A stretch of DNA of 22,177 bases, from positions 1 through 22,177 of IMG/VR virus record IMGVR_UViG_3300025086_000285, one strand, 5' to 3'. Origin of the DNA: a virus. The translations under genes and the position numbers were made by a program. Each line of letters begins with the position of its first letter. The first letter of the stretch is position 1. Positions 1,498 through 19,929 of the stretch are shown in pieces. The notes beneath the pieces were generated by a model that saw only the letters and a program-made list of their open reading frames with translations, was not told where the DNA came from and did not search any database.

Positions 1498-1950
1498 ATG
1501 CTTGAGGGACTACTAACAACAGAGTTTCTATCTCTGGTTGGCGGCAGCGTCACGGGATTTCTTTTCAAGGCAATGGCCGAGAAGAGAGCGAACGAACAAG
1601 AACGCTTCAACCGAATGATCGAAGCATCTACCAAAAGAAACGAACACGCTAACGAGGCAGTGAAGCGTGTTGGAGTGGAGGCAGGCAAGTGGGTACGAAG
1701 AGTCATCGTTCTTGCAATCCTATTTGGCACTATCCTCGCTCCCTTTCTTCTACCATTCTTCGGGATTCCCGTGGTAGTAGAACTGACTGAAAGAAAGTAC
1801 GCACCACTTGATCTATTCGGTCTTTTCGGAACAACCGAGACAGTCTCCTTTGAAGTGATCAGAGGATATTTGTTCACACAAGAGAATAGACAGATTCTCG
1901 TGACCATTGTCGGTTTTTACTTTGGTGCTGCTGTAGGGAAAACACGATGA
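1498..1950 (+). CDS. Holin-like small membrane protein
   Basis: 150 residues. The start is supported by GAGG at 1488-1491, six bases before the ATG; the motif overlaps the stop of the previous gene. An N-terminal hydrophobic stretch (residues about 4-25) is followed by a charged amphipathic helix (27-66), a long membrane segment with two prolines (about 68-93, starting WVRRVIVLAILFG) and a C-terminal membrane segment ending IVGFYFGAAVGKTR. This layout and the GFYFG ending recall 3TM holins of the gene-transfer-release type, which make holes in the inner membrane to release endolysin. It is followed at once by two other small membrane proteins, which fits a lysis cassette, but no endolysin lies in the window. 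It could instead be a structural or envelope protein of unknown role. Confidence 0.75.
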   Translation: MLEGLLTTEFLSLVGGSVTGFLFKAMAEKRANEQERFNRMIEASTKRNEHANEAVKRVGVEAGKWVRRVIVLAILFGTILAPFLLPFFGIPVVVELTERKYAPLDLFGLFGTTETVSFEVIRGYLFTQENRQILVTIVGFYFGAAVGKTR

Positions 1951-2198
1951 AAAGAATCGCGATAAGTATGATGTGTTGTCTGATTGTCCTTGGATGTCAA
2001 GATGGCGTCAAGATTGTAGAATCAGTCCCAACGAAATCTATTCCGCCACTTGATGATGGTACTGTGATGGCACAGATTCCCGTTGAGACAACCACGGGGT
2101 GGTTGCCTATCGGGGCATACCTTCTTCTTCTTGGTATTGTTGGTTGGTTGACTTGGAGGGAATTCCGTGGAAGTACTGCAAAGTCTAATAGATCCTGA
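1947..2198 (+). CDS. Small lipoprotein with C-terminal membrane span, u-spanin-like
   Basis: 83 residues, start overlapping the previous stop as ATGA. The N-terminus (MKRIAISMMCCLIVLGC) is a lipoprotein signal with predicted lipidated Cys17; Gln follows it, so nothing argues against outer-membrane sorting. A proline-rich, strand-like segment of about 33 residues follows, then a membrane span at about 51-70 (WLPIGAYLLLLGIVGWLTW) and a basic tail (REFRGSTAKS). Lipid at one end and a membrane span with cytoplasmic basic tail at the other is the architecture of unimolecular spanins such as T1 gp11, which fuse inner and outer membranes in the last step of lysis. The periplasmic part is short for that job, so the assignment is tentative. 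The last 32 bases overlap the next gene. Confidence 0.7.
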   Translation: MKRIAISMMCCLIVLGCQDGVKIVESVPTKSIPPLDDGTVMAQIPVETTTGWLPIGAYLLLLGIVGWLTWREFRGSTAKSNRS

Positions 2199-2391
2199 AG
2201 CGATTATCACTGCTCTACTATTTGGACTCGTTGGGTTCGTGTGGAATATTTCACACAAGGTCACACAACTATCAACGAAGATCGATGACCTACGCAAAGA
2301 CGTTGATCGTCAACGCGAAGATATCCACAAGTTAGAAGAGCAAGTTGACCGACTCACTGAGAAGCATTGGTCTACCAACGGCGATCTCTAA
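2167..2391 (+). CDS. Membrane-anchored coiled-coil protein, possible i-spanin-like or holin partner
   Basis: 74 residues from a GTG start with a near-perfect ribosome site (GGAGGG at 2155-2160, six bases upstream), which supports GTG over any later start. Residues about 10-27 form one membrane span (AIITALLFGLVGFVWNI); residues 30-68 form a charged coiled coil with heptad leucines, isoleucines and valines (VTQLSTKIDDLRKDVDRQ). An N-terminal span followed by a coiled coil is the shape of inner-membrane spanins (Rz type), but many unrelated small phage proteins share it. It overlaps the lipoprotein gene by 32 bases, and its TAA stop overlaps the stop of the opposite-strand nuclease gene. Confidence 0.7.
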   Translation: MEVLQSLIDPEAIITALLFGLVGFVWNISHKVTQLSTKIDDLRKDVDRQREDIHKLEEQVDRLTEKHWSTNGDL

Positions 2392-9533: not shown

Positions 9534-10478
9534 TTAGCCTTTCGCATATTGGACAATAAGCACAATCAAAAGTGAAGCGGCGAGACCAACCATCAACTTC
9601 AAGAAGTCTTTGCTGACCATCGGGAATACCTTCTTCACACTATCTTTATTACGGAAGGATGCAATCGCAAGTTCTCGTCCCGTAAGAAGTCCAACGAACA
9701 CCCAAGTAGTGGACATTGGAATATCATTCATTTCCTTGAAGATGTACAACACAATGAAGTAGAACAAGTCAATCAAGGTTGCAGAGCGAACATATTTGGT
9801 GTTCTTCTTTTCAAGAACAATCTGCTGAATCTTACCACCTCGATGTTGCAGCATCCAACCAAGTCCCCCGACAAACACAACAGAGATGATGAGCATCACC
9901 TCTACAGAAAGTTGTCGAGGCAGGAAGACTGCGATGTTTGCCATATCATGAGACAACCAAGTCCACCAAAGGAAAGCAGTTGTCACCCACTGTGCAACTT
10001 TCCATTTCACTTTGTTTGACTCTTTGACTGGTTTACCTTCGTCAAGAAGGCGGGTGAGTGTAATCCAAATTACATAAGCGGCAACACCGGCAACACAATA
10101 CCCCATCATAGACTTCATCAGGACTTTCTCTAGCACCACCGTGGACGCGAACGCAGAAAGAACCAAGAATGATGTTGATACAGGAATACCGAAACGAGTG
10201 AGAATCAATAGGACTGCTGGTGCGAGTGCTTGATACCACTCTACTCCCGCAAACGGAATCTTGTTGAGTCTGCCGTATGAAATACTTCCATCATAGGCAT
10301 ACCATCCGTACCAGATTGCGAACAGAAGAACGGAACCTGCAAAGCCCCACATGATCTTCCAGTTTACTTTTCTGTTGCTTGCGATCCATGTTCCAAGAGT
10401 TTGGATTGAGTCGTTTGCAATTACACTATAAGCGGCGAGGAGAAACCCCACCCACATCCATAACGAAATATCACTCAC
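9534..10478 (-). CDS. PiT-family inorganic phosphate transporter
   Basis: 314 residues with about eight to ten membrane spans. The two inverted repeats typical of PiT/PHO4 sodium- or proton-coupled phosphate permeases are visible: first half SVIANDSIQTLGTW (18-31) and GIPVSTSF (97-104), second half WLSHDMANIAVF (174-185) and DIPMSTTWVF (252-261). The Asn-Asp pair and paired (I/V)PxST re-entrant motifs are the family's substrate-site features. At 314 residues it is shorter than bacterial PitA (about 500), consistent with a compact core. The start is GTG (10476-10478) with AAGGAA six bases upstream; an overlapping out-of-frame ATG runs straight into a stop. Likely role: raise phosphate uptake by the infected cell for DNA synthesis, as an auxiliary metabolic gene. 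The substrate is inferred from the family. Confidence 0.8.
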   Translation of the reverse strand: MSDISLWMWVGFLLAAYSVIANDSIQTLGTWIASNRKVNWKIMWGFAGSVLLFAIWYGWYAYDGSISYGRLNKIPFAGVEWYQALAPAVLLILTRFGIPVSTSFLVLSAFASTVVLEKVLMKSMMGYCVAGVAAYVIWITLTRLLDEGKPVKESNKVKWKVAQWVTTAFLWWTWLSHDMANIAVFLPRQLSVEVMLIISVVFVGGLGWMLQHRGGKIQQIVLEKKNTKYVRSATLIDLFYFIVLYIFKEMNDIPMSTTWVFVGLLTGRELAIASFRNKDSVKKVFPMVSKDFLKLMVGLAASLLIVLIVQYAKG

Positions 10479-10495: not shown

Positions 10496-11254
10496 TTAGA
10501 TCTTCATAAAGGCATGTTTGCCATCTAGTTTATTGTTGACCCACAGTTGGTTGTATCCAACAATCCCAACAAGGGTAAAGTCTTCCTGTATAAGTTCGAA
10601 ACCGGGGTGGGCATCATCCCAGTGACCCAACTGGGTCATGAATTCCATCCACAGGAATTTTGTGTGTTCCTTGAGTGTAGTCAAAGCACCCTCAAGGAAC
10701 TCTTTCTCTCCGCCGTTTACATCAACGTGTATGAAGTCGATCATGTCAACGTCATCTTGCTGTTCAAACCATGTATCTAATTTGAGGGATGGGACTTTCG
10801 TTTCTTCGAATCCAACGTGTTTATGGTGAATCATGTGACCGCGAGGAAACTTGATTGTTCCTGATGGTGCATTCTCATTGGTTTCAATTATTCTACTCTG
10901 ATACCAAGTTAGTTCGCCATCAACATTAGATACCGCAGACTCGATCAAAGTCATGTGTCCATCTTCGATGAGTGCCTTGTGGTCTTTCTTGTACCAGTAA
11001 GCAATTTTTGGATCTGCCTCGAAAGAGAATACACGACACCTATCCCTACCAACATCATCAAGATATGCTGCCCCGTCGAGTCCGTTGTAGCAACCAACGT
11101 CGAGGACTACAAAGTCTTTATCTTGACTAAACCAATCTCTAGTTTGAATGGCTTCTGTTAGTGTGGGATTTTCCTCAAGGGGGTGACTCTCAGTGCTGCC
11201 GCCTAGCGTTTCTTCCGCAAATATATCTGCTGTTCCATCTTCGTTGACACGCAT
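10496..11254 (-). CDS. FkbM-family SAM-dependent methyltransferase
   Basis: 252 residues. The Rossmann methyltransferase core shows motif I VVLDVGCYNGLDG (49-61), acidic motif II FSFEADP (76-82) and an FkbM-type segment IDFIHVDVNGGEKEFLEGA in the second half (usual form IDVEGxExxVLxG; the Glu is Asn here). FkbM enzymes methylate sugar hydroxyls or small molecules; in phages they often accompany glycosyltransferases, so glycan modification is plausible but the substrate is unknown. The first ~35 residues look like a flexible extension with no motif. The start overlaps the primase stop as TAATG, indicating translational coupling; the nearest GGAG is some 13 bases away. A second, divergent FkbM gene lies at 19174. 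Confidence 0.85.
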   Translation of the reverse strand: MRVNEDGTADIFAEETLGGSTESHPLEENPTLTEAIQTRDWFSQDKDFVVLDVGCYNGLDGAAYLDDVGRDRCRVFSFEADPKIAYWYKKDHKALIEDGHMTLIESAVSNVDGELTWYQSRIIETNENAPSGTIKFPRGHMIHHKHVGFEETKVPSLKLDTWFEQQDDVDMIDFIHVDVNGGEKEFLEGALTTLKEHTKFLWMEFMTQLGHWDDAHPGFELIQEDFTLVGIVGYNQLWVNNKLDGKHAFMKI

Positions 11255-12335: not shown

Positions 12336-12488
12336 TTAGTCAATCATTTCCTTCTCGTCTTGCTCTTTTTGTTCGGCAATCCACTTATCAGCCCACTCTT
12401 TCCACTCATTGAGTTCCTCTTGATCAATCTTTGCTTTATCAGTCGATCTGGAACTCTGTGAACTGTGCTTTCTTGAATTTGCTGTCAT
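12336..12488 (-). CDS. Small charged protein between helicase and primase
   Basis: A 50-residue reading frame, ATG to TAA. A GGAG ribosome site lies nine bases before the ATG. The start overlaps the last 50 bases of the helicase gene and the stop lies two bases from the primase ATG, so it fills what would otherwise be a 100-base gap and probably couples primase translation to the helicase gene. The first ~18 residues are basic and serine-rich (MTANSRKHSSQSSRSTDK); the rest is a strongly acidic helix with regularly spaced tryptophans (EELNEWKEWADKWIAEQKEQ). A role as a helicase-primase accessory peptide is only suggested by position. I do not recognise a family. Confidence 0.55.
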   Translation of the reverse strand: MTANSRKHSSQSSRSTDKAKIDQEELNEWKEWADKWIAEQKEQDEKEMID

Positions 12489-13833
12489 AATCGAAATCTC
12501 CATTTTGACCATTGTCTTGAGAGTTATCGTGAAGGGTTACATCGGAATCATCTACATCATACAGTTTCATTTTCGCTCTATTGATTCCAGTTACAAATCT
12601 CTTATTTGTAGTTACGTCATTATATCTATTCTTCAACTGCTTCACAAGAACCTGTCCATGCTCCTCTAGTTCCTCTGATGTCATCATTGCAAACATGAAG
12701 TCAGCAGTTTGAGGCAAACCGAATGATTCGCTGGTATCTTCGAGACCAACATCATTGCTTGAGAAACCTGTGCGGTTGGTTTGTGTTGCAGTGAAGATCG
12801 GAACATCATACTCAATCGCAAGTCCACGAAGTTCTTCTGCAATTGCTTTGATGATCGTATACGAGTTGAAGTTTGATCCTGCCTTGAATCTGCTTGAGGC
12901 ACAGATGTTGATGTAATCAATAAAGACAATATCAGGCGTGAACTTCTTCTTGAGTCGAAGTTCATCGAGGAGGTTCCTGAAGTGCTGTGCATTTGCAGTC
13001 GCAGTTGGATACTCCTTGACGATGAGTCGAGACTTGATGTTCTCTGTGACTCGCATCAGTTTCTTCTCATAGACCTTCTTGGTGAGGATCTTGAGATCAT
13101 CGAGGGTAATGTCCATCAGGTTCGCATCGATGCGTTCTGCGATTCGCTCCTCTGCCATTTCACAAGTGATGTATAGAACATTCTTGCCTTGCGAGTAGCA
13201 GTGTGCGGCGTGGTGACACATGAACAGAGACTTACCAACATTGGTGCCTGCCATAATCACATTCAGGGTCTTCCGTGGAATACCACCATTCGTGACCTTG
13301 TTGAATCCTTCGAGATCAAACGGCATACGATCTTCGACCTTGTGATAGGACTCGAATCGGGACTCTGCATCGTACAAGTAATCGTGTCCAATGTTCGTAT
13401 CGAAGGATACAGATAGTGCATCGGATAGGATAGAGGGCAGGGCGTTTGCTGTTTTATCCTTACTCTTTCCATCGATGATTTCAATGGACTGTAGGATCGC
13501 GTTATAGATCGCTTTGTCTTTACAGAACTTTTCTGTATGATCCACTAACCATGCGTTCTTGTCAGTCTCGACATCACCAGATTCAATATCATCGATTTTT
13601 TCAGAGGCAGACTTGAATTCACTTTCTGAAAGTGCGGTATCCTCGACGATAATTCTGAGAGCATCGATAGGTGGACATGTGTTGTACTCGGTGATGTGAT
13701 CTCTCGTAGCACGGAAAATCACTTTATCCACATTTTCTTGGAAGTACGAATCACGCAGGAAAGGGACTACCTTCCTTGCATAGTCTTCATTCCGAATCAG
13801 ATTCCGTAGAATTATTTTTTCCTGTGTGTCCAT
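12439..13833 (-). CDS. 41: Replicative DNA helicase, T4 gp41 type (DnaB family)
   Basis: 464 residues from the ATG at 13831-13833. The open frame extends to a TTG at 13851 and another ATG at 13839, but only the chosen ATG has a well-spaced site (GAGG six bases upstream). The N-terminal helical domain (about 1-150) is followed by the RecA-fold motor: Walker A AGTNVGKS (195-202), catalytic Glu in ITCEMAEER (E225), Walker B DIVFIDYINI (301-310, D306) and motif 3 FTATQTNRTG (Q351). It forms a hexameric 5'-3' helicase at the fork and loads the primase. The C-terminus (about 430-464) is acidic and Asn/Asp-rich. The gene order UvsX, gp41, gp61 is the same as in T4. A possible internal promoter lies about 90-120 bases upstream. 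Confidence 0.95.
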   Translation of the reverse strand: MDTQEKIILRNLIRNEDYARKVVPFLRDSYFQENVDKVIFRATRDHITEYNTCPPIDALRIIVEDTALSESEFKSASEKIDDIESGDVETDKNAWLVDHTEKFCKDKAIYNAILQSIEIIDGKSKDKTANALPSILSDALSVSFDTNIGHDYLYDAESRFESYHKVEDRMPFDLEGFNKVTNGGIPRKTLNVIMAGTNVGKSLFMCHHAAHCYSQGKNVLYITCEMAEERIAERIDANLMDITLDDLKILTKKVYEKKLMRVTENIKSRLIVKEYPTATANAQHFRNLLDELRLKKKFTPDIVFIDYINICASSRFKAGSNFNSYTIIKAIAEELRGLAIEYDVPIFTATQTNRTGFSSNDVGLEDTSESFGLPQTADFMFAMMTSEELEEHGQVLVKQLKNRYNDVTTNKRFVTGINRAKMKLYDVDDSDVTLHDNSQDNGQNGDFDYDSKFKKAQFTEFQID

Positions 13834-14116
13834 CGACATCCTCACTATCAAAGATCAGGTTATCAGTTTCAATCGAGTGATCAATGAGTTCTACAAGAAC
13901 ATCACCTAGAAACTCAACCAGTTCTGGAGTATTATCCTCTACATTGTTAGGATTGTCAAGTAGGATATACTCAAATTTCAAACCACATTCTTCTGAGTTT
14001 TCAATTGGTTCAAACCGAACAGGCCCATACGAAAGAACCAAGTTCTTGTATGGACCATCTTCGGTTATGCGAATCGCCTCCTCTTGTTCACGACTCGCTA
14101 CAAATTCAAATCTCAT
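13787..14116 (-). CDS. Hypothetical acidic phage protein
   Basis: 109 residues, ATG with GGAG nine bases upstream. No recognised family. It begins MRFEFVASREQEE and has beta-strand-like segments (LVLSYGPVRFEP, CGLKFEYILLD) followed by an acidic helix (ELVEFLGDVLVELIDHSI) and a Glu/Asp/Ser-rich tail that overlaps the helicase start by 47 bases. The layout recalls the short hypothetical proteins scattered through T4-like replication regions. Its start shares ATGA with the stop of the upstream PEP-CTERM gene. The gene is supported by its ribosome site, its overlaps and the lack of any alternative frame. Confidence 0.7.
   Translation of the reverse strand: MRFEFVASREQEEAIRITEDGPYKNLVLSYGPVRFEPIENSEECGLKFEYILLDNPNNVEDNTPELVEFLGDVLVELIDHSIETDNLIFDSEDVDGHTGKNNSTESDSE
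13931..13959 (-). promoter_or_regulatory. Possible internal sigma-70 promoter ahead of helicase gene
   Basis: On the - strand TTGACA (13959-13954) is perfect and GATAAT (13936-13931) matches five of six -10 bases, with a 17-base spacer. It lies inside the 109-residue gene, about 98 bases before the helicase ATG. One such match inside coding sequence can arise by chance. Confidence 0.35.
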
Positions 14117-14544
14117 TTTCTTCGTCTCCGAGAAGCAAGACCGGCAATGCCTAAAAGGGCGAATACTCCGGGTGCTGGAACAGGTGCGAATGTCTCAAAG
14201 GCACTGGCAGAACCAAAGATTTGATCATTGTAAATCGTTGCGGGGACAAGTTGATACCCCGTGTACGGAACTTCAATTGACCACAAGGCAAACTGACCGG
14301 GCGTATCTAGATTGAATTCGTAAGAGAAGTCGTTGTCTCCAAAAACCATTTCAAAATCAGTGACACCGATGTTCCCATCTGCAAGGTAAAACTTGTAATC
14401 AAATCGAGATCCGATCTGAGTTTCCGTATAGTCAACTGTGAAAGATCCCTCCCAAAACAAGTTGTTCCAGTTCCCACCGATCTCCTGTGTTGCAGGGAAA
14501 TCAACACCCGCAAGCATCGCACTAGCAATCATTGTTTCAATCAT
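14113..14544 (-). CDS. PEP-CTERM sorting-signal protein (predicted exosortase substrate)
   Basis: 143 residues from the ATG at 14542-14544, which overlaps the uvsX stop in ATGATTGA; a TTG start eight codons earlier (14568) would add a basic stretch (KRKWKIT) and make a better signal peptide but has no ribosome site. The N-terminus is hydrophobic (MIETMIASAMLAGVDFPA). The body is beta-rich and aromatic (YKFYLADGNIGVTDFEM). The C-terminus is diagnostic: VPAPGVFALLGIAGL followed by SRRRRK, i.e. motif, membrane helix and arginine cluster as in PEP-CTERM proteins, which are exported, cut by an exosortase and attached to the cell surface. No exosortase is seen here, so the host enzyme would be needed. 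The location between uvsX and helicase is unexpected. The function is unknown. Confidence 0.75.
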   Translation of the reverse strand: MIETMIASAMLAGVDFPATQEIGGNWNNLFWEGSFTVDYTETQIGSRFDYKFYLADGNIGVTDFEMVFGDNDFSYEFNLDTPGQFALWSIEVPYTGYQLVPATIYNDQIFGSASAFETFAPVPAPGVFALLGIAGLASRRRRK

Positions 14545-15592
14545 CGTTATTTTCCATTTCCTCTTCAACTGTTACATTCGCACTACCGTAGCAAAACTCC
14601 TTGGCTACTGCTGCGTCAATCTTCTTCATCACCTCATCAGTGAAGTACTTTGTTGGTTCCCTGTAGATCTGCTTCTCGTAGACCTTTGAACCATCGGCAA
14701 CTTGAACACGAGTTCCCAACTTCTCGAAGATGCCGTGGTCAAGGGCAATATCAACCAAACCGTAGTATGGATTGAGACCCTTCTCGTAGTCGAGCATCAC
14801 ATCAACCATCGAGTTCTCCTTTGTCATACGAGACTTGTGGAGTTTACAGTGGATGATGTTACCGATCACATCAGTCCCTTCTTTGACCTTCTTCTTCGTA
14901 AGATATACGATTGTAGAAGCGGCATACTTGAGACCGGAACCACCACCCATCTCCTTGGTCGGGAACATTGAACCGACAACAGCATAGGTGTGATTCGTCA
15001 TGACCATAGGAATACCAGCAGCACCCAGTTTGATTGTGAGTGTTCGGAAGGTTGACTTGACAATCTGTGCCCGAGTCATGTCTCTCGTAGTCTTACCATC
15101 TGCGGTGTCTGCCATTTCTTTTTCAGTCGAAAGCATACCGAGTGAATCGAGAACGATCATCATTGGCTTGCGATCCTTCTTTGGCAACTCACGATAGTTG
15201 TCAACCATCGAGATCGCTTGGTGACGGAACTTCTCAACCGTATCGATGGGAATCACAGCGACTCTTGCTGGATCAATACCTCGTTCGGTGAACATACTAG
15301 AAGTCACTGCCTGCTCAGAGTCAAAGTAGACTACGATACCTTCAGGACGATCTTGAAGGAATCGCTGCACCATTCCAAGTGTGAAGTAAGTCTTACCAGT
15401 AGCACTTTCACCAGCGATGGCAAGAATCTTATTGTCGGGGAACCCACCATGAATGGAACCCGAAAGGAGTGCATTGAATGTATACGATCCCGTATCAACG
15501 AAACCATTTACATCACCGATAACACCGTCGCCTACGCGACGAGCATCTTCATTCTTCGTCGCATCCATCATCATGTTTAGTAGATCACTCAT
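14537..15592 (-). CDS. uvsX: RecA-like recombinase UvsX
   Basis: 351 residues. The RecA core is clear: Walker A GESATGKT (61-68), catalytic Glu in VYFDSEQ (E93), Walker B MMIVLDSLG (144-152) and a DNA-contacting loop region followed by the IPMVMTNHTYAV strand. The segment GGGSGLKYAASTIVYLTKKK matches the T4 UvsX type rather than bacterial RecA. It forms filaments on single-stranded DNA and drives strand exchange for recombination-dependent replication and repair, normally helped by UvsY, which is not visible. Start ATG with AGAGGAG eight bases upstream; it overlaps the stop of the 60-residue gene by eight bases (ATGAGTGA). The C-terminus is acidic (EEEMENNDD). Confidence 0.95.
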   Translation of the reverse strand: MSDLLNMMMDATKNEDARRVGDGVIGDVNGFVDTGSYTFNALLSGSIHGGFPDNKILAIAGESATGKTYFTLGMVQRFLQDRPEGIVVYFDSEQAVTSSMFTERGIDPARVAVIPIDTVEKFRHQAISMVDNYRELPKKDRKPMMIVLDSLGMLSTEKEMADTADGKTTRDMTRAQIVKSTFRTLTIKLGAAGIPMVMTNHTYAVVGSMFPTKEMGGGSGLKYAASTIVYLTKKKVKEGTDVIGNIIHCKLHKSRMTKENSMVDVMLDYEKGLNPYYGLVDIALDHGIFEKLGTRVQVADGSKVYEKQIYREPTKYFTDEVMKKIDAAVAKEFCYGSANVTVEEEMENNDD

Positions 15593-18308: not shown

Positions 18309-18448
18309 GGTGATTGTAAGTAGTAATACTCTATTTGTTGTTCGACACCAAACTTGTCACCGACACCGAAGAGTCCAATCCTGTACACAGGCTCTTTAGT
18401 TTTCGGAGTTGAGCATCCACATAAAATCGCTAGAAAGAACCACCTCAT
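18305..18448 (-). CDS. Small lipoprotein
   Basis: A 47-residue frame, start ATG overlapping the stop of the PEP-CTERM membrane-protein gene (ATGA). GAGGAG lies about nine bases upstream. The N-terminus MRWFFLAILCGC is a short lipoprotein signal with lipobox L-C-G-C and predicted lipidated Cys12, followed by STPKT. The mature part of about 35 residues (KEPVYRIGLFGVGDKFGVEQ) has no known motif and ends in a tyrosine-rich segment. It would be a small membrane-anchored peptide outside the inner membrane. Phage lipoproteins of this size can block superinfection or act in lysis; which applies here cannot be told from sequence. Its stop codon overlaps the -35 box of the polymerase promoter. Confidence 0.6.
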   Translation of the reverse strand: MRWFFLAILCGCSTPKTKEPVYRIGLFGVGDKFGVEQQIEYYYLQSP

Positions 18449-19149
18449 CGCCGGCGTCTCCTCATCACGGGAAACATTAGAAGAAAGGCAAGGGCAGATG
18501 GGGCAGGAATTACCACGGGATCATCTTCGATCATAAATTGATCTGGGTACACGGAGTCGAATGAGAATTCTATGAGTGATGGTGGGAACGACTGAATAAA
18601 ATCTGTGTACAACATTTCATCATAGATGTTCTCACTCACTATTCCCATTCCCAATCTGGTAAGGACACTGGATGGTTGCTGTGGATCATAGAAGATATCT
18701 TCATCGAGTACAGAGAGAACATCAGGAAAGTAAGGATCAAGATCAAAAGGAACAGTAGAAAGACCTGCGAGAGAGGGAATCTCCCACGCTTGTTTATCAT
18801 CGACTTTTTCTTCGTCCTTTTCATCATCCTGCTTGTCCTGTTCTGGTTGGGTTGTAGTCGCTGGTGTTGACATACCAATTGTTGTTGGTAGATCCAAACC
18901 AGTTGCATTGTTGAATGAATTGATATAGTCGGCAATACTATCAACAAACTCTTTACCAAGAACTGCTCCAGTTATAGCGGCAACGACAGTCATAGTCGTT
19001 ACCTTTTTCTGGAGTTGTGAGCGATTTTGCTCACATTCGTCAAGAAGACTCTTGACCTCTTTTGTTCTTTCCCGCTTGAGGTTTTCAACCTCTTCAACCA
19101 CTCTATCATAATCAGCACATCGCGGACAACTATTGCGATCCTCTGACAT
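18445..19149 (-). CDS. Membrane-anchored protein with C-terminal PEP-CTERM-like signal
   Basis: 234 residues, ATG with a strong AAGGAGG site. Order of parts: CPRC pair (8-11), charged coiled coil (about 12-48), one membrane span (about 50-66, TTMTVVAAITGAVLG), a low-complexity acidic linker (about 95-120, Gln/Asp/Glu/Lys), an aromatic acidic region (121-210) and a C-terminal PEP-CTERM-like tail: VIPAPSALAFLLMFPVM ending in five arginines. There is no cleavable signal peptide; the internal span predicts N-terminus inside and C-terminal part outside. Removal of the tail by a host exosortase would leave a protein anchored in the inner membrane and joined to the envelope at its other end. This topology is unusual for PEP-CTERM proteins. 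It heads a pair with the small lipoprotein gene. The function is unknown. Confidence 0.75.
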   Translation of the reverse strand: MSEDRNSCPRCADYDRVVEEVENLKRERTKEVKSLLDECEQNRSQLQKKVTTMTVVAAITGAVLGKEFVDSIADYINSFNNATGLDLPTTIGMSTPATTTQPEQDKQDDEKDEEKVDDKQAWEIPSLAGLSTVPFDLDPYFPDVLSVLDEDIFYDPQQPSSVLTRLGMGIVSENIYDEMLYTDFIQSFPPSLIEFSFDSVYPDQFMIEDDPVVIPAPSALAFLLMFPVMRRRRR

Positions 19150-19173: not shown

Positions 19174-19929
19174 CTACGGTATGTAGGCGCCAGATGAAGC
19201 GAGTTGAAGTTGTTGAACAACATCAAGGTTTGTATAAGCATTTCTAATTGCTGGTGTTATATTTGGTGCAGTTAGAATGTAGTCTAATCCTGTATCTGCA
19301 AATACATAATATCCGTGTTGCTTTGTCCATTGTTCGATAAAGGGCTTTCCAACTATGGTGTGTTCTATGCTGACCACACGAACCCCCCATGTGTTTGGAT
19401 TGAAGGCAGGTAAGGCCAATTTTTCAGAACCTTCGATATCGATCTTTACAAAATCAATTGGTCTTCCAGTGTAGAACTTTGAGATAATAGTATCGAGCGT
19501 ACGCATAGGGACTTTGACTGGTCCCGATAAGGCCTGATTGCCGTCTTTACCTCTCGTTGGTTTATCTACGTTTCCAAAGTAGTAACCCTCGTAGGTTTCC
19601 GAGTTATCAAATTCCTCTCTGTAATCCACAAGAGAGGAAAGTGATCCACTGGCGTTGCTGTAGAAAGTAACTGAGTCCTTATCAGAGTCACCAACAGCAC
19701 AATGAATACAATGTGATTTTGGTCTATTTTGTTTTAGGAGTTGTGCATAGTCTGGATGTGCTTCAATGCAAATACCAGTCCAGCCTGCATTTTCTAGTTC
19801 GGCAGTATTACTGTGCCGAATCCCATCTAACGCACCAACATCAACAAAGGTTCCCTTCCCACCGAGAACATTTCCCAATAGGAAGTTTAGAATGTATGTT
19901 TGTTCATCTACCTGAGTCATCTTTTTCAC
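19174..19929 (-). CDS. FkbM-family SAM-dependent methyltransferase (second copy, divergent)
   Basis: 251 residues from a GTG; an in-frame ATG three codons later (19920) is equally possible, as neither has a clear ribosome site. SAM motif I GTFVDVGALDGIRHSNT (26-42), acidic strand GICIEAHP (52-59) and the typical FkbM block IDFVKIDIEGSEKLAL in the middle, with the Glu of DIEGSE intact, unlike the copy at 10496. It probably O-methylates a sugar or other surface substrate. The start overlaps the Nmad1-like gene by 26 bases. Apart from family motifs the two FkbM proteins are not similar, so they were probably acquired separately. Substrate unknown. Confidence 0.85.
   Translation of the reverse strand: MKKMTQVDEQTYILNFLLGNVLGGKGTFVDVGALDGIRHSNTAELENAGWTGICIEAHPDYAQLLKQNRPKSHCIHCAVGDSDKDSVTFYSNASGSLSSLVDYREEFDNSETYEGYYFGNVDKPTRGKDGNQALSGPVKVPMRTLDTIISKFYTGRPIDFVKIDIEGSEKLALPAFNPNTWGVRVVSIEHTIVGKPFIEQWTKQHGYYVFADTGLDYILTAPNITPAIRNAYTNLDVVQQLQLASSGAYIP

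Follow-up and report, generated by a model that had tools for sequence, protein, structure and literature searches.

A putative exosortase sorting signal on a protein from the replication operon of a T4-like phage probably infecting Phycisphaerae

Can a phage protein carry the tag by which bacteria hand proteins to their own exosortase? The question is raised by CTERM1, a small protein encoded among the replication genes of a phage. In the PEP-CTERM model, proteins are exported, held transiently by a C-terminal helix with a basic cluster inside the cell, recognised by exosortase through a motif and sorted onward; in the founding description the PEP motif is near-invariant (PMC1569441). The DNA analysed, hereafter the window, is the whole stretch of 22,177 nucleotides of IMG/VR virus record IMGVR_UViG_3300025086_000285. 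Comparisons with related phage contigs and with bacterial genomes make it likely that CTERM1, and probably also a second protein of the window (protein 2), are phage-encoded substrates of the host exosortase, in a T4-like phage group that probably infects Phycisphaerae (planctomycete bacteria).

Position and architecture of CTERM1

A sequence-only reading of this DNA had placed a tailed protein inside the replication operon, and the gene order confirms it. On the minus strand uvsX is followed by CTERM1, a 109-aa ORF and a helicase gene (Table 1), with overlapping starts and stops: the uvsX stop overlaps the CTERM1 ATG (ATGATTGA), and the CTERM1 stop and the ATG of the 109-aa ORF overlap as ATGA. 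CTERM1 itself starts with the ATG at 14544 and ends with the TGA at 14113-14115. An in-frame TTG at 14568, upstream of this ATG, would add MKRKWKIT and is absent in the related contig L002. The 109-aa ORF comes after CTERM1 in L001, L002 and L004.

Table 1. Features of the window and of related contigs (L numbers)
Feature	Position	Strand	Description
CTERM1	14113..14544	(-)	143 aa; short hydrophobic N-terminus, low-confidence beta-rich body, PEP-CTERM-type tail
CTERM1 N-terminal hydrophobic stretch	14503..14544	(-)	MIETMIASAMLAGV; weak signal-peptide candidate, without positive charge
CTERM1 tail	14116..14181	(-)	VPAPG-VFALLGIAGLAS-RRRRK; TIGR02595 match at precisely these coordinates
uvsX (RecA-like)	14537..15592	(-)	Identified by similarity to cyanophage UvsX
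109-aa ORF	13787..14116	(-)	Without assigned function; ATG overlaps CTERM1 stop
gp41-type replicative helicase	12439..13851	(-)	Next operon gene; homologues in relatives
Protein 2	18445..19149	(-)	234 aa; CPRC motif, charged segment, internal hydrophobic segment, acidic variable region, C-terminal tail
Protein 2 tail	18448..18513	(-)	VIPAPSALAFLLMFPVMRRRRR; PEP-CTERM-like by pattern
Small consecutive ORFs	1498-2391		Membrane segments; one with lipobox-like LIVLGCQ start
FkbM-type methyltransferase genes	10496-11254; 19174-19929		TIGR01444 over cut-off
Membrane protein	9534-10478		Sub-threshold PHO4 phosphate transporter match (29.4 vs 33.7)
Dockerin-type C-terminus phage proteins	L024 188-3181; L026 828-2757; L040 4070-4693; L228 3361-4380		Near tailed proteins; Planctomycetota-type
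19-contig family gene	L327 5355-6050		Adjoins T7-type terminase
Truncated ORF at contig end	L103 15758-15931		Tail IPEPGILLALFIPYIWQLITKRRRKK, PEP not PAP form
Three adjacent ORFs	L233 3509-5914		PAP-type tails; L233 only a putative phage contig

The C-terminal end of CTERM1 reads VPAPGVFALLGIAGLASRRRRK (the longer stretch at the end is APVPAPGVFALLGIAGLASRRRRK) and carries a Pro-x-Pro motif, a hydrophobic helix and a basic cluster, in PEP-CTERM order and at the very C-terminus. Hydropathy peaks at both ends only, so that no further transmembrane segment lies between the signal and the tail. The body is predicted, with low confidence, to be beta-rich; two structure predictions gave mean pLDDT values of 40 and 43. 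The description of this end as a textbook PEP-CTERM tail is somewhat strong, given a motif that is PAP rather than PEP (Ala for Glu) and the weak N-terminal signal.

The score of CTERM1 against TIGR02595 is 14.8 bits by hmmscan and 17.4 bits in a six-frame search, the cut-off being 16, and against PF07589 it is 16.9 bits (cut-off 20.7). This copy alone is borderline, since its two scores straddle the TIGR02595 cut-off. A different allele of the same uvsX-gp41 slot, found in L004 and L009, passes both models (TIGR02595, 19.6 vs 16; PF07589, 20.9 vs 20.7). The profile score does not lie at background, an outcome which the sequence-only reading would have taken as a refutation. Several further phage copies of tailed proteins score below the TIGR02595 cut-off. 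Other C-terminal anchors were considered and rejected for CTERM1. The LPXTG/sortase type (PF00746, 11.7 bits vs cut-off 20) shares the three-part tail logic but has a different motif and enzyme; the MYXO-CTERM models TIGR03901 and TIGR03382 stayed under cut-off (17 vs 20 and 13 vs 15.85, respectively), and so did other CTERM models.

TIGR02595 is a short model of 24 positions, and at E values up to 10 it yields weak hits in 12 of the 14 control genomes, exceeding the cut-off in two. The tails could accordingly have matched a short hydrophobic pattern ending in Arg by chance, or could lie on misclassified cellular contigs, L233 and L202 being only putative phage contigs. Several observations speak against this explanation, which is already disfavoured and which we regard as very improbable. 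In several assembled contigs the gene is flanked by phage replication genes, its frame is conserved at the protein level, and the controls by shuffling and with cyanomyoviruses were empty. For instance, a regular expression for the tripartite tail matched two ORFs in the window and none in 300 codon-block shuffles, and shuffling the last 36 residues of CTERM1 yielded the tail pattern in 2.5e-5 of trials. Likewise, TIGR02595 found nothing over cut-off in about 1.57 Mb from nine genomes of marine T4-like phages, of which eight are cyanophages; judged by DNA polymerase (about 51-53% identity), these phages count among the closest named relatives. By these sequence controls, the tail of CTERM1 is more than chance.

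Exchange at the CTERM1 slot and a second tailed protein

The tail is kept in related phages, another point on which the sequence-only reading can be upheld. The L002 homologue of CTERM1 is 82% identical in protein and ends in FAPVPTPGTFALLGLAGFSARRRRR, and the tail pattern is retained in L002, L038, L039 and L040 despite changed letters. Across CTERM1 and its relatives the PxPG motif is constant despite variation in the letters of the helix.

The slot also shows mosaic exchange. L004 and L009 have a UvsX 98% identical to that of the window, yet a different body stands at the CTERM1 slot. In DNA, the window and L004 are 97% identical as far as the start and 94% identical across the final 48 tail bases, with 37% identity in the body between. 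The L004 body is found again in L038, L039 and L040, where the surrounding genes differ. The L038 copy of this body matches that of L004 at 95% in DNA and 99% in protein, whereas DNA identity is 49% for the leader and 63% for the tail. From these two comparisons, leader and tail behave as separate modules of which the pattern, and not the sequence, is kept. Since bodies are swapped between ends that keep their pattern, selection would include the destination of the protein as well as the cargo. A replaced body and a tail that stays would also be compatible with a decoy role, in which the phage protein would tie up the host exosortase and so upset the sorting of the host's own surface proteins, and its body would count for little. 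However, the recurring bodies are strongly conserved, as the 99% figure illustrates, which is needless for a pure decoy, and we hold this explanation to be improbable.

Protein 2, which the sequence-only reading omitted, is flanked by gp43 and by one of the two FkbM-type methyltransferase genes of the window. No TIGR02595 match was detected on it by hmmscan, and it contains an internal hydrophobic segment near residue 55, whereas PEP-CTERM proteins are expected to have no extra transmembrane segment. For these two reasons protein 2 is called PEP-CTERM-like by pattern only. In the L002 protein 2 the middle has diverged (56% identity overall) and the end is still FIPAPSTLTMFLLPLSFARTRRR (PAPS...RRR). 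A possible remote homologue with CPxC, LGKE and a PAP tail occurs in L233. A search of cellular genomes gave weak matches in 3 of 397, each of which extended to the model's C-terminal end, and these were rejected as cellular relatives.

The internal segment of protein 2 and the weak N-terminal signal of CTERM1 would suit a tail that is a plain C-terminal anchor in the inner membrane, for example of an Imm-like exclusion factor or an accessory membrane protein, with exosortase uninvolved; a hydrophobic helix and a basic cluster are enough for insertion. The constancy of PxPG beside a variable helix argues against such an anchor, which is in our opinion an unlikely explanation.

Elsewhere in the window, the consecutive small ORFs at its beginning, the first of which is kept in relatives, may be holin- and spanin-like lysis genes, judging from their sequences. 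The window also encodes a membrane protein with a weak likeness to phosphate transporters (Table 1).

Tailed protein families in related phages and the probable host

IMG/VR contains further phage families of proteins with a hydrophobic N-terminal leader and such a tail; they occur in the T4-like group of the window phage and, in one instance, next to a T7-like terminase. A 212-aa protein of this architecture is present in L024, L026, L035 and L036 (partial), and in L024 and L026 proteins with a dockerin-type C-terminus are encoded directly upstream of it. Another family surfaced in DNA-pattern scans of IMG/VR, whose patterns fixed an Ala and thus covered PAP but not PTP tails, and similarity search found it in 19 contigs. 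One member is interrupted; all 18 intact members have a signal-peptide-like leader, a P[AT]P[GS] motif and an RRR-type end. Several members, again from the T4-like group, adjoin the gene of a class II ribonucleotide reductase (66-69% identical to that of the window). The copy of L327 beside a T7-type terminase suggests, from its gene neighbourhood, transfer between unrelated phages. A PEP-type tail was seen on a truncated ORF of L103.

The window phage has no recorded host; its host, probably Phycisphaerae, is deduced through its relatives (UvsX 62-63% identical) and the genes shared with them. The dockerin-type C-termini of relatives have their cellular matches in Planctomycetota (8 of 8 loci), mostly named Phycisphaerae or Phycisphaera and including TMED9, TMED75 (named Planctomycetes) and MED835. 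The dockerin-type protein of L228 is over the cut-off of PF00404 (Dockerin_1; 33.8 vs 22.9), and NF041540, the model of GC-type dockerin-anchored proteins, scored 17.8 on a phage dockerin-type protein, below its cut-off of 29. Proteins of these dockerin types occur beside tailed proteins in related phages and are absent from the window.

Exosortase was found in all seven genomes behind the dockerin-type matches, and in 194 of 198 sampled Phycisphaerae genomes as against 1 of 14 controls. The enzyme which the sequence-only reading needed in the host lineage is therefore almost universal in the host class deduced here. The tails of Phycisphaerae proteins usually combine PAPG or PTPG with a cluster of Arg residues (PAPG/PTPG...RRRR form, as in the phages), and PAP tails of this class pass TIGR02595. 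That phage tails share the form of host exosortase substrates again argues against a plain anchor. So does the 19-contig family, which is homologous along its length to host PEP-CTERM proteins: homologues occur in 10 of 397 Phycisphaerae genomes, and the best of them, about 30% identical, align over the full span of leader, body and tail and carry tails such as IPAPGALALLGMGGLIAGRRRR.

Beyond the tail, no cellular relative of either CTERM1 or protein 2 was recognised. For the CTERM1 body, none appeared in cellular genome contigs (two peptide patterns only), nor with a body-only profile among the host loci compared. Profile A5 responds in 225 of 251 host genomes, apparently mainly through the tail, because the body searches found no cellular relatives.

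Proposed function and relation to known systems

The system described here shares with PEP-CTERM/exosortase (EpsH; TIGR02595, PF07589; PMC1569441) the PxP motif, the hydrophobic helix and the basic cluster, as well as bodies without known homologues and, in several phage families, a signal-peptide-like leader. It differs in being phage-encoded, in a motif that is PAP or PTP in place of PEP (a trait shared by most tails of the probable host class), and in the borderline score of the window copy.

The proposed sequence of events is as follows. CTERM1 would be made from the phage replication operon and would then cross the inner membrane. Its C-terminal helix would hold it there, with the Arg cluster inside, and the host exosortase would recognise the PAP motif, so that CTERM1 would finally sit on the infected-cell envelope or be set free from it. 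The infected-cell surface would be changed as a result; for instance, further phages could be excluded or receptors masked. The sequence-only reading had suggested superinfection exclusion or release from aggregates as possible purposes. We infer the host of the window phage, and the export, cleavage and surface location of CTERM1, from the comparisons described above; the routing of the phage protein to the surface by the host exosortase, as proposed in the sequence-only reading, is the best interpretation of the sequence. The borderline score and an N-terminus without positive charge are caveats to CTERM1 as a substrate. Although speculative, altering the surface of the infected cell is the likeliest purpose, since the exchange of bodies between retained ends resembles that of surface-exposed proteins. 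A wider proposal, to which we give slightly better than even chances, is that aquatic Phycisphaerae phages, T4-like ones and at least one T7-like phage, share exchangeable exosortase-using surface-display proteins that, together with dockerin-type proteins, remodel the infected-cell surface.

The T5 Llp protein is a phage protein that acts in superinfection exclusion at the envelope, and proteins of this kind use lipoprotein sorting or simple membrane insertion. CTERM1 is likewise small, and its sequence suggests a location at the infected-cell envelope. INPHARED named phages contain no convincing homologue of CTERM1 or protein 2; two of the other tailed families were without a match there. 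The statement that no phage case had been described agrees with the papers searched, among which there was none on a phage PEP-CTERM protein, subscription journals and preprints lying largely outside this coverage; a Microcystis paper was rejected as such a case, as it deals with PEP-CTERM genes of the host. The tag and the enzyme are already known, and the use of both by a phage appears to be new.

If this proposal is true, a bacterial sorting system that is poorly understood yet widespread would be tied to phage infection, and the tail would help to recognise Phycisphaerae phages from sequence. The tailed proteins, as small and defined substrates whose bodies and tails are swapped, would help to probe the action of exosortase and the destination of its products. 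If the tailed proteins exclude other phages, they would represent a new route of superinfection exclusion.
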